Source of the DNA: an uncultured Phaeodactylibacter sp.
GTDB taxonomy: Bacteria > Bacteroidota > Bacteroidia > Chitinophagales > Saprospiraceae
Length of the DNA stretch: 20,975 nt
Assembly (NCBI GenBank): GCA_913062745.1
Contig: CAJXXJ010000004.1
Span: forward strand, 1-20,975
Direction: 5' to 3'
Shown: piece by piece, positions 10,720 through 13,734 of the stretch
Position numbering within the stretch: position 1 is the stretch's first letter
Layout of the letters: the number at the start of each line of letters is the position of its first letter
Made by a program: the position numbers and the translations under genes
The notes under the pieces: generated by a model
Seen by the model: only the letters and a program-made list of their open reading frames with translations
The model's database searches: none
Told to the model about the DNA's origin: nothing

Positions 10720-10740
10720 TTTCCTGATTATTTCAGGAAA
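10720..10740. repeat. Inverted repeat spanning the htpG stop codon
   Basis: TTTCCTGA (10720-10727) and TCAGGAAA (10733-10740) form a perfect eight-pair stem whose five-base loop contains the htpG stop codon. It could slow release or protect the mRNA 3' end, but nothing proves a function. Confidence 0.5.
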
Positions 10741-12593
10741 TTCATACTCTTGTTGATGAAAGCAGTAAGCTCCGCACCGGTCAGCATATTTTGGTTGAGC
10801 AAAGCGAGCTTGTAAAGATAGTCGGCCACTTCCTGCGTACCTTCTGCCTCTTCCTGCCCTGCCAGTTTGCTGGCAATCAGCGGGTGGTTGGAATTGACCA
10901 CTACGTTCACGCTGTCCGGGAAGTCACCGAACTGCATACCCTGCAGCGTCTGCATTTCCTTCATGCGGCGCATAAACTCCGGCCGGGTGATGGTAACGGG
11001 CTGATCTTCCGGAGAGAGGGCTTTCATCACCACCGTATTGCCCGGTTTGTCCGCTACTTTTTCAAACAGCTCTTTGACCTTGTTCTGCTGCTCTTCGCTC
11101 AGTACGGATTCGGTCTCCTCGTCTTTCTGCACCAGATTGTCCACCGTATCCGAATCGACGCGCACGAAAGTCACATCTCCAAACTTCTGCTCCAGATGCT
11201 GCATGAAATGGTTGTCGATCACATTATCGAATAAGACCACATCGTAGCCCTTCTTCTTCGCCGCGGAGATGAAGCTGTCGTGCTGCTCAGGAGCATTGGT
11301 GTACAGCACCACGATTTTATCGTATTTATCGGTTTGCTGCTCCTTCACCTTGTCCTTGTAGGCTTCCACCGGCGTGAAGCTGCCGTCAATGCTCTTCAGC
11401 AGCGAAAACGGCAGGGCCCGCTCGTAGAATTTCTCGTCGGAGATCATTCCGTACTTAATGAATACGCCGAGGTCGTCCCACTTAGCCTTGAAATTCTCTT
11501 CGTCTTTCTTGTAAAGCTCTGCCAGCTTATCTGCTACTTTTTTAGTGATGTAGCCGGTGATTTTACGCACGTTGCTGTCGCTTTGCAGGTAACTGCGGGA
11601 CACGTTCAGCGGAATATCAGGAGAATCAATCACACCGTGCAGCAGCGTCAGGAATTCCGGTACAATTTCCTTGACATCATCCGTGACGTACACCTGATTG
11701 CTGTACAGCTGTATCTTGTTTTTCTGCAGCTCAAAGTTATTGCCGAGCTTAGGGAAGTACAGTATACCCGTCAGGTTGAACGGATAGTCGATGTTGAGGT
11801 GAATCCAGAACAGCGGCGGCGTGCTGAAAGGGTACAGCTCGTTGTAGAATGACTTGTAGTCTTCGTCCGTCAGGTCTGCCGGCTGCTTGCGCCAGGCCGG
11901 GTCCGGGTTGTTGATGATGTTGTCGACTTCAATCTGCTTTTCCTCGGCGTCGTCTCCTTCGCCTTCCGTCACCGTTTCGGTTTTGGTGCCGAACTTAATA
12001 GGCACAGGCAGGAATTTGCAATACTTGTCGAGCAACTGCTGAATGCGGTGCTCTTCCAGAAACTCTTTGTTCTCCTCATTGATGTAGAGGATAACATCAG
12101 TCCCCCGGCTTGATTTGTCGTTTTCCTCCAGGAAGTACTCCGGGTTGCCCTCGCAGACCCAGGTAGCGCCGCCTGCTCCTTCCTGGTAAGACAGGGTGCG
12201 CACTTCTACCTTGTCGGCTACCATAAAGGCCGAATAAAACCCGAGGCCGAAATGCCCGATGATGGAGGCATCGTCTTTATACTTTTCCAGAAACTCTTCA
12301 GCACTGGAGAAAGCCACCTGGTTCAGGTACTTTTCCACCTCTTCGGAGGTCATGCCGATGCCTTTGTCCCGGATGGTCAGGGTCTTTGCCTCTTCATCGA
12401 TCAGGATTTCGATGGTGGTATCCCCGAGCTCGCCGGTAGTCTGGCCGCGGCGGGAAAGTGCTTTAAGTTTAGTCGTGGCGTCTACGGCATTGGACACCAA
12501 TTCGCGGAGGAATATCTCGTGGTCAGAATACAAGAACTTCTTGATAATCGGGAAGATATTCTCCGTTTGAACAGATATGTTACCTTTTGGCAT
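10728..12593 (-). CDS. htpG: Molecular chaperone HtpG (bacterial Hsp90)
   Basis: A 621-residue cytoplasmic ATP-dependent chaperone. The N-terminal GHKL ATPase domain shows FLRELVSNAVDATTKL (catalytic Glu and Mg-binding Asn), IRDKGIGMTSEEVEKYLNQV and IIGHFGLGFYSAFMVAD with the glycine-rich lid, then SRGTDVILYI. The middle domain carries PLFWIHLNIDYPFNLTGILY and the conserved SRSYLQSDSNVRKI arginine loop region. The dimerisation domain follows to NMLTGAELTAFINKSMNFLK. Length matches the family. The ATG at 12593 gives the standard start MPKGNISVQTENIFPI; the frame extends upstream to 12674, but that extension is unlike the family. The stop codon sits in the loop of a small 8-bp hairpin and a strong terminator lies downstream. 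No CIRCE-like operator is visible upstream, so heat-shock control by HrcA is not supported. Confidence 0.97.
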   Translation of the reverse strand: MPKGNISVQTENIFPIIKKFLYSDHEIFLRELVSNAVDATTKLKALSRRGQTTGELGDTTIEILIDEEAKTLTIRDKGIGMTSEEVEKYLNQVAFSSAEEFLEKYKDDASIIGHFGLGFYSAFMVADKVEVRTLSYQEGAGGATWVCEGNPEYFLEENDKSSRGTDVILYINEENKEFLEEHRIQQLLDKYCKFLPVPIKFGTKTETVTEGEGDDAEEKQIEVDNIINNPDPAWRKQPADLTDEDYKSFYNELYPFSTPPLFWIHLNIDYPFNLTGILYFPKLGNNFELQKNKIQLYSNQVYVTDDVKEIVPEFLTLLHGVIDSPDIPLNVSRSYLQSDSNVRKITGYITKKVADKLAELYKKDEENFKAKWDDLGVFIKYGMISDEKFYERALPFSLLKSIDGSFTPVEAYKDKVKEQQTDKYDKIVVLYTNAPEQHDSFISAAKKKGYDVVLFDNVIDNHFMQHLEQKFGDVTFVRVDSDTVDNLVQKDEETESVLSEEQQNKVKELFEKVADKPGNTVVMKALSPEDQPVTITRPEFMRRMKEMQTLQGMQFGDFPDSVNVVVNSNHPLIASKLAGQEEAEGTQEVADYLYKLALLNQNMLTGAELTAFINKSMNFLK

Positions 12594-12833
12594 AGCTCCT
12601 ACTTTTTTTATACCCATCAGTACAAAGCCTGTGCCAGCTAAAAAAAACTGACAACTTGACGTAACCTCTTGCAAATACTGCCGTACAAAGAGGCGTGCGC
12701 AGCCGAAAGGCAGAGAGCAACAAGCTGTTTACACAAAATTGCAACAAGCGGTTGAAAAAAATAGCAGAAATGCCTAATTTGCGCCCAAAGAGAGCAACGG
12801 GATAAAAAATCCCTTTCAAAAGAGCTATACTAC

Positions 12834-12865
12834 AAAAAAAAGAGGGGGAGAATTTTTAATTCCCC
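12834..12865 (-). terminator. Minus-strand terminator upstream of htpG
   Basis: On the minus strand GGGGAAT pairs with ATT-CTCCCC (seven pairs with a small bulge, loop about five bases), followed by CTC and eight T residues (plus-strand A run at 12834-12841). It would end minus-strand transcription arriving from the right before the htpG promoter region. Since rpiB already has its own terminator, its natural client is unclear; it may insulate htpG. Confidence 0.65.
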
Positions 12866-12950
12866 GAGGGCAATAGCCTCCTGTCTACGTACCAAAACTT
12901 CAAATCAAGAGATAATCAGGCACCGAATACGATGTGCTGCACAGCGGCCT

Positions 12951-13109
12951 GAAAATGCGTGGTGCCTTCACGAAGATCTGATGCTTATTGCTTCGGCAAT
13001 CTGCAAAAGTCTATTGTTGTGAGCAGCGAGGCTGATACTGGGGGGTAGTCAGTCCGTTGCTCGCGCAATAGGTTTTACAAATGCATTTAAGAAGTGACCT
13101 GGCCTTTTC
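12951..13109 (+). ncRNA. Candidate structured RNA, possibly 6S-like
   Basis: The region folds into a long rod when read by eye. The inner arm is nearly continuous from 13011 to 13071: CTATTG/CAATAG, then GTGAGCAGCG/CGTTGCTCGC (two wobble pairs), GGCTGA/TCAGTC and TAC/GTA around a G-rich loop. AAAA (13005-13008) and TTTT (13073-13076) extend it. A side hairpin on the 5' strand, ATTGC-TTCG-GCAAT (12987-13000), has the very stable C(UUCG)G tetraloop, which favours the plus strand. Outer pairing is patchy: ATGC/GCAT, TCT/AGA, TCAC/GTGA, GAAAA/TTTTC. A long arm, a bubble with a hairpin and a closing stem in about 160 bases is the build of 6S RNA, which binds housekeeping RNA polymerase, but I cannot match a family consensus. 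Strand and ends are uncertain, and no clear promoter is seen. Confidence 0.4.
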
Positions 13110-13140
13110 TTTCTGGGGGGTAAGGATTGGCTATGGTCCA

Positions 13141-13190
13141 CACAAATTGGGCGGAGAACCTCGGTTCTTCGCCCTTTTGTGATTTTAGCG
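13141..13190 (+). terminator. Strong plus-strand terminator-like hairpin
   Basis: GGGCGGAGAAC (13150-13160) pairs with GTTCTTCGCCC (13165-13175 region) over eleven pairs including one G-T, closed by a CTCG loop. CACAAA (13141-13146) and TTTGTG (13176-13181) extend the stem. The 3' side runs into TTTTGTGATTTT. No plus-strand protein gene lies upstream, so it is best explained as the end of a noncoding transcript. Confidence 0.65.
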
Positions 13191-13221
13191 GGCAGGTTTA
13201 CGCTTCTTCGCAGTCAACAAC

Positions 13222-13267
13222 AAAAAAAGTGGTCAGTACCCATTCGGGGGCGCTAACCACTTTTTTT
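13222..13267. terminator. Symmetric terminator after rpiB
   Basis: A perfect twelve-pair stem, seven A plus GTGGT (13222-13233) with ACCAC plus seven T (13256-13267), lies 20 bases after the rpiB stop. The A and T runs make it a potential terminator on both strands: for rpiB on the minus strand and for anything reading rightward on the plus strand. Confidence 0.88.
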
Positions 13268-13287
13268 ATGCGGCTTTTCGTTCCGGC

Positions 13288-13734
13288 TTATCCGCTGCAG
13301 GCAATTTTACCGACCCGCCGTTCGTGCCGGCCACCTTCAAATTCAGCACTCAGAAAAGCTTCGGCAATCTCCATGGCCGTTTCTTCCGTGATGAAGCGTA
13401 CCGGCAGCGCCAGCACATTAGCATCGTTGTGCTGCCGGGCCAGTTCGGCCAGTTCCGGCGTCCAGCAGAGCGCCGCGCGGATGCCCTGATGTTTGTTGGC
13501 CGTTATAGCCACACCGTTTCCGCTGCCGCACATGACGATGCCCAGAGCGGCACTTCCGCTCTCCACTGCTTCCGCTACCGGGTGCACAAAGTCGGGGTAG
13601 TCTACAGACTCCTCAGAGTGGGTGCCAAAATCCTGTACTTCGATGCCGCGGTGCTGCAGCATCGCGACGATGCGGGCCTTGTAAGGAAAGCCCGCGTGGT
13701 CGCAACCGATTGCGATTTGCTTAACGTCCGCCAT
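13288..13734 (-). CDS. rpiB: Ribose-5-phosphate isomerase B
   Basis: A 148-residue cytoplasmic enzyme of the LacAB/RpiB family that interconverts ribose 5-phosphate and ribulose 5-phosphate in the pentose phosphate pathway. Visible motifs: IAIGCDHAGFPYK with Asp12-His13 in the substrate site, DFGTHSEESVDYPDF, the catalytic MCGSGNGVAITANK with Cys69, and RQHNDANVLALPVRFI with His102. Length fits the family (about 145-150). The start ATG at 13734 lies inside the upstream DUF2723 gene: the two overlap by 14 bases, so rpiB is probably translated from the same message. A symmetric terminator follows. Confidence 0.95.
   Translation of the reverse strand: MADVKQIAIGCDHAGFPYKARIVAMLQHRGIEVQDFGTHSEESVDYPDFVHPVAEAVESGSAALGIVMCGSGNGVAITANKHQGIRAALCWTPELAELARQHNDANVLALPVRFITEETAMEIAEAFLSAEFEGGRHERRVGKIACSG

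Follow-up and report, generated by a model that had tools for sequence, protein, structure and literature searches.

The intergenic region between htpG and rpiB of an uncultured Phaeodactylibacter very probably encodes a real structured RNA that is not 6S-like (around positions 12951-13109 of the window, as we call the whole stretch of 20,975 nucleotides that was analyzed). This RNA almost certainly belongs to a genuine family of structured RNAs, in which the stems covary while a loop of six guanines (G6) stays nearly invariant. A sequence-only reading of this DNA had proposed either a divergent 6S RNA or a new RNA family; conservation, covariation, synteny and the lack of any Rfam match support the latter, and the hallmarks found are a hairpin with a G6-U loop, a covarying stem and an orientation divergent from htpG. 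The family is strongly supported, and we infer its partner and its function. Taken as a whole, our best explanation, a lineage-specific regulatory small RNA that would use repeated G6 loops as a contact surface, stands in our opinion an even chance of being right.

As had been read from the letters, the region is free of genes over 694 bases, from the htpG start (12593) to the rpiB end (13288). The RNA most likely lies on the plus strand, since this strand folds better and a terminator follows on it. We distinguish the following features:

10728-12593, minus strand: htpG (HSP90; Pfam PF00183), transcribed away from the RNA
12620-12636, minus strand: sigma54-like -24/-12 site of the divergent htpG, TGGCACAGGCTTTG; a neighbour of the RNA that could reflect co-regulation
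12752-12782, plus strand: putative promoter-like site, TTG-N20-TAATTTGC, found as an expression match
12788-13181, plus strand: presumed whole small RNA of about 390 nt, from the promoter-like site to the terminator, with inferred ends
12818-12830, plus strand: conserved 5' block around AAAGAGCTAT; 13 of the 17 sequences aligned, a set of the window's type that was picked by eye and includes the window, have AGAGC here
12885-12897, plus strand: box CTACGTACCAAAA (mostly CTACATACCAA in the others), predicted mostly unpaired
12980-13004, plus strand: small hairpin P0 with a UUCG loop; its arms vary between relatives and are still paired
13011-13071, plus strand: hairpin P1, the 61-base arm, with G6 at 13040-13045; match of the covariance model R1 at 13009-13072
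13094-13141, plus strand: hairpin P3, the second loop copy, with G6 at 13115-13120
13139-13181, plus strand: Rho-independent terminator, with a stem of 11 pairs at 13149-13174
13288-13734, minus strand: rpiB (Pfam PF02502), transcribed towards the RNA

Just past the rpiB stop, at 13222-13267, the window also holds an inverted repeat with T-runs on both sides, likely a bidirectional terminator. A protein of about 535 aa, absent from the window, adjoins the RNA on the rpiB side in L041, L042, L043 and L045, and is an M28 peptidase by Pfam in L043, the one tested (G numbers denote genomes and L numbers loci; L093, for example, is G021:C1).

Folding singles out P1. Over 13009-13072 it reaches -37.0 kcal/mol, against -17.6 +/- 2.5 kcal/mol for 500 dinucleotide shuffles (z -7.8), none of which was as stable, so that the 61-base arm noticed at first sight is sound. 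The whole of 12951-13109 gives a z of -4.4 on the plus strand (0/200 shuffles as stable) and of -3.1 on the minus strand (1/200). The UUCG side hairpin had also been rightly recognized and lies at 12980-13004, where the different sequences of relatives still pair. The outer closing stem that had been drawn around these elements did not survive: by eye its 5' arm is not conserved, and what had been taken for its 3' arm forms the 5' arm of P3, a hairpin which had been overlooked. P3 carries the same loop as P1, (C/U)UGGGGGGUA, and is present in 10 of 10 sequences, namely the window and nine relatives, among which its stems differ. Its own arms pair better than mixed arms (mean -23.3 vs -15.2 kcal/mol), and the window's P3 taken alone is not significant (z -1.3). 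The window and nine close relatives share the order P0, P1, linker, P3 and terminator, the linker often containing a small hairpin, and the nine closest relatives folded have the terminator at the corresponding place. Terminators reading outward had been announced on both strands. The one on the plus strand was found, while the one on the minus strand (stem 12847-12865) is one of two terminator-like matches where shuffles give 1.1, falls within what is probably the 5' portion of the plus-strand transcript and has no conserved counterpart by eye.

One could assume that these inverted repeats, placed beside a regulated gene, work as DNA, either as a cruciform or as a binding site for a protein. 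This is most unlikely, as the stems of the plus strand contain G-U pairs, the plus strand folds much better than the minus strand (-60.5 vs -42.7) and the terminator follows directly on the plus strand.

The element is longer than the 12951-13109 first outlined: two blocks further upstream, at 12818 and 12885, are conserved, and the promoter-like site lies at 12752-12782. It is quite probably a separate small RNA. PMC9723704, on Flavobacterium psychrophilum, describes the boxes TAnnTTGY (SM5) and TAnnTTTG (sigmaA), and the -7 box of the window, TAATTTGC, fits the former or, loosely, the latter. A promoter-like expression of the TTG-N-TAnnTT(T)G type was matched in 12 of the 17 sequences picked by eye. 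Among 58 element loci, it lies upstream on the RNA strand in 15, on the other strand in three and downstream in one; these loci, like the sets of 59 and 94 used below, come from related, partly repeated genomes, and the 58 and 59 were all already known to carry the G6 hairpin. The CTACATACCAA-like box is matched in all 17 aligned sequences and, across all loci, in 19/58, vs 5 downstream and 3 antisense. In the window, the predicted probability of being unpaired is 0.85-0.99 for seven of the eight bases tested in this box and 0.29 for the first. Within the window's subtype, the box is kept even at L034, where no htpG is seen nearby.

We then come to the covariation of the stems. For P1 in the window and nine relatives, 269 of 270 cells are paired, against 31-50% in slid controls, 10 cells are changed on both sides, compared with 4.4 in shuffles (0/500), and the covariation score lies above all 500 shuffles. 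Four P1 pairs show double changes, a number reached by 51/500 shuffles, and the 14 pair types are reached by 98/500; 18 of the 27 pairs are invariant and give no evidence either way. For the core hairpin, 15 sequences (alignment A4) show changes on both sides in 13 of 15 pairs vs 6.2 in shuffles (0/500). Since these 15 hairpins were chosen out of 49 for core pairing, the percentage of paired core cells in A4 is a selected one; the outer GUGAG/CUCAC helix, unselected in A4, has 76% of its cells paired and double changes in 5/5 pairs. The compensatory changes among relatives that the sequence-only reading had suggested to look for are thus found, in the core hairpin as well as in P1.

The 49 hairpins themselves come from 30 of the loci then available, chosen by us with L058 left out, and runs shorter than G6 or without a following T were dropped, including one hairpin of L052. 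Their ungapped cores pair in 285 of 441 cells, vs 217 +/- 13 with arms dealt anew (0/2000). In this set, preselected for G6 followed by T, a T precedes the run in 41/49 and an A follows the T in 44/49. RNAalifold found no structure in the unrefined MAFFT alignment of the 49, we think because the hairpins differ in register. A count in reversed sequences (162 vs 153) is uninformative because reversal keeps stem-loops.

A BLAST search with 12860-13200 matched six of 98 relative genomes, in addition to the window's own. At E<=0.1, R1, a covariance model of the P1 arm, matched 12 genomes among the 248 of the family, eight of them at E<=2e-20. An exact pattern gave 12 matches in named genomes, of which 10 are genuine. 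Two of these are isolates, Phaeodactylibacter xiamenensis KD52 and P. luteus KCTC 42180; the other eight are MAGs, whose titles read Phaeodactylibacter, Saprospiraceae, Chitinophagales, Bacteroidetes/Bacteroidota or bacterium. The two remaining matches, L022 and L025, were judged chance on inspection. Phaeodactylibacter is placed in Saprospiria. Carriage of the RNA by phages was rejected, as one exact pattern matched 0 viral contigs.

Distant members were reached through the loops. Two GGGGGGTA words 71-131 bases apart occur in eight of 396 order genomes, and the reversed pattern in none. Four of the eight are genuine (G025, G020, G035 and G145), with stems that differ from those of the window, less so in G025, and with loops and layout that agree; the matches L033, L035, L038 and L040 were judged chance on inspection. 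R2, a covariance model of the core hairpin made from 15 hairpins of relatives, matched, at E<=0.01, 125 of the 248 family genomes sampled, spread over 65 of 112 genera, and 91 of them at E<=1e-5. Two to four matches, usually a few hundred bases apart, occur in 41 genomes. All 30 top R2 loci carry a G6-loop hairpin; among 40 further matches that were opened, mostly weaker ones, 37 have G6, two (G133 and G221) have G5 and one, the second match in G035, has neither. In 395 class genomes, R2 had no match outside the family at 1e-5. The weaker matches L112 and L113 (outside the family) and L114 (inside it) have no G6 loop, and R2 matches above about 1e-5 therefore include chance hairpins; five of six matches opened at 2e-5 to 6e-5 carry G6. 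R2 does not match the window's own genome, and the two types are bridged by G050 and G194, where R1 finds one hairpin of an element and R2 the hairpin next to it. An element has two hairpins in the window and one to four elsewhere.

Arrays deserve a remark of their own. In L104, L105, L054-L056, L093, L101 and L102, the units often have a 5' module of their own, consisting of a TTTTTGC-like word, one or two C5-6 runs, GGGATAAA..GCAAAGATCTT, a small hairpin and the G6 hairpin, and look as if each were its own gene. L093, in G021, is a second array, on a contig other than that of the htpG-linked one.

How does this RNA relate to known families? At gathering score, none of the 4227 Rfam families is present in the window, nor in 18 relative loci (87 kb), which agrees with the initial impression that no family consensus could be matched; the best sub-threshold match, mir-14 with 22 of 53 bits, is taken as chance. 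The element does resemble 6S RNA (RF00013) and 6S-Flavo (RF01685), which are likewise stand-alone structured intergenic RNAs with a long hairpin, and RF00013 finds no 6S RNA in these genomes (0/99, vs 4 of 14 control genomes, under strict filters), which would leave the place vacant. A divergent 6S RNA, as once proposed, is nevertheless barely credible. No 6S family is among the 11 matches listed at E<=10 in 12600-13400, and the 6S-like layout is unsupported because it rested on the outer closing stem, which is not kept in relatives. In contrast with 6S and 6S-Flavo, the RNA has no conserved closing stem with a central bubble; P1 runs almost unbroken, and its G6 loop recurs on P3, a hairpin of its own, the number of such hairpins being variable. 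With 6S-Flavo, 0/99 genomes passed the cut-off of 85 bits, nor did any control genome, which weakens this negative, and one weak match of 38 bits was seen, in G033. No earlier report of this RNA was found in our literature search, a 2017 survey of 224 candidate structured RNAs lying outside it.

We next consider the position beside htpG. An htpG start lies within about 1.5 kb of 26 of the 30 top R2 loci, always divergent, the exceptions being L086, L090, L093 and L103. Some of the hairpins behind R2 came from htpG neighbourhoods, and a fair count is therefore limited to genomes outside its building set, where htpG stands beside 20 of 22 loci. In G145, G050 and G214, the RNA is divergent from htpG with stems unrelated in sequence, and htpG is beside both L018 and L019, which have one G6 hairpin. 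Starting conversely from htpG, we examined upstream regions (<=1500 bases) in 29 further family genomes, the order-level L079 being left out of a set of 30 htpG loci: 17 contain one to three G6-loop hairpins, all on the divergent strand, and 12 contain none. Reading 11 kb at the G020 copy and 8 kb at the G035 copy showed no htpG, and in G194 the contig stops next to the copy. Altogether, htpG is a usual, not a universal, neighbour of the RNA family.

This position raises the question of whether the hairpins are simply transcription terminators or insulators acting in cis on the htpG region, rather than parts of a free regulatory RNA. Supporting this idea, a T-run directly follows the hairpin in L064, L069, L071 and L075, and in about half of 40 opened R2 matches by eye. 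However, a terminator hairpin could just as well form the 3' end of the small RNA, termination does not call for a conserved loop, and the window has a separate terminator after both hairpins. The conserved upstream elements would also go unexplained, and some copies are not seen near htpG (L093, G020). We thus regard a purely cis role as quite unlikely and favour the regulatory small RNA. In the single-copy members L127, L131, L139, L149, L150, L157 and L158, which have a common upstream word of about AAGGGATTAAGTATTGGA, a T-run mostly follows the G6 hairpin without a gap, which makes the G6 loop look like part of a short RNA's terminator.

Another aspect of this neighbourhood is the presence of sigma54-like sites. 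The site TGGCAY-N5-TNG precedes htpG in 73 of 94 htpG loci, a redundant set. This is in line with published work, since in Flavobacterium psychrophilum, according to PMC9723704, promoters of sigma54 type (SM4) precede groES/groEL, lon, dnaK, grpE/dnaJ and htpG. On the RNA side, a TGGCAY-N5-TTG-like site occurs in 22 of 58 loci, often in array-type relatives, against three downstream; shuffles, which for promoter and sigma54 sites alike preserve base composition alone, give 0.5 on average and at most 4. The sites on the other strand (24/58) we read as htpG's own. No sigma54-like site belongs to the RNA of the window itself.

The nearly invariant G6 loop is likely to be a contact site. Several observations bear on its partner. 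Of the 29 later hairpins in arrays, 18 have a run of at least five C (C5+) at 45-150 nt upstream, vs 0/29 for the G5+ control, tandem copies not being independent. For first hairpins, the C5+ run is upstream in 15 of 59 loci and the G-run control in 5 of 59, and the window element has none upstream of its hairpin. These counts suggest that loop and tract may pair in the array subtype. The htpG leader was rejected as a target: no C5+ run is found around the htpG start in any of 94 htpG loci, which makes htpG no obvious target. A genome-wide excess of the loop-complementary word TACCCCCC was rejected too, as the word does not consistently outnumber its reversed control across 30 genomes (the window's genome has 79 vs 43, G033 has 66 vs 126 and G054 has 12 vs 40). 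Contact through base pairing, slightly short of an even bet, would come before contact with a protein, which is possible and rather doubtful.

A parallel can be drawn with RNAs that repeat one loop. The CsrB/RsmZ-type sponge RNAs have several hairpins with an identical GGA loop, and the present family likewise has several hairpins with the same loop, which is UGGGGGGUA instead. On the other hand, multi-loop base-pairing sRNAs, such as some rhizobial families, repeat identical C-rich loop seeds; here too a repeated identical loop could be a seed, but it is G-rich whereas theirs are C-rich. In this respect, an RNA-binding protein could recognize both the G6 loop and the GUGAG/CUCAC helix some 20-22 nt before it, the copies acting as a sponge or scaffold that titrates this protein. 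The variable copy number (one to four model matches per genome) fits with it, as do the exact GTGAG of 31 of the 49 hairpins, which has its start 18-25 nt ahead of G6 (at 20-22 in 28), and the loop kept where the C-run is absent. Against it, the known partner CsrA is found in 0/18 member genomes (3 of 14 control genomes were positive) and the loops have no GGA, so that a CsrA sponge was rejected, and the C-runs complementary to the loop in arrays would be left unexplained. We consider such a sponge doubtful. An Hfq-dependent sRNA was likewise rejected, Hfq being found in 0/18 member genomes and in 5 of 14 control genomes. Bacteroidota are known to have an sRNA family with paralogues, FopS/GibS of Bacteroides thetaiotaomicron, the FopS consensus being described in PMC11697453 as consisting of a single-stranded 5' stretch, which holds the seed, and a terminator hairpin. 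The conserved unit of the present family differs from this FopS consensus: it is a hairpin loop, often in tandem, beside htpG.

We propose that the element belongs to a family of regulatory small RNAs that is new and lineage-specific and whose members would be independently transcribed. Its working parts would be stem-loops of variable stem sequence that expose the same loop, (C/U)UGGGGGGUA, and the G6 loops would form a base-pairing surface. In relatives with tandem copies, they could be met by the C5-6 runs upstream of the hairpin at the same locus; elsewhere, their partners could be C-rich stretches of other RNAs. The weakest step is that the RNA might act with the protein-quality-control regulon, a link drawn because htpG adjoins and sigma54-like sites precede htpG and many RNA copies; we hold this tie to proteostasis as tentative. 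A bolder and rather unlikely hypothesis would be a new class of self-contacting RNAs, in which modular units of a C5-6 tract and a G6-loop hairpin, duplicated in tandem, lock onto themselves or one another by pairing of loop and tract, with stress on protein folding triggering their release or assembly, within a sigma54 chaperone regulon.

What would be the benefit of studying this RNA? The family is widespread and conserved with no Rfam match, and neither Hfq nor CsrA was found in the 18 host genomes tested, so that it offers a direct way into the use of small RNAs by bacteria of this kind. Its position by htpG, together with the sigma54-like sites, connects it with a stress response that can be tested, and cultured hosts exist, P. 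luteus and P. xiamenensis.
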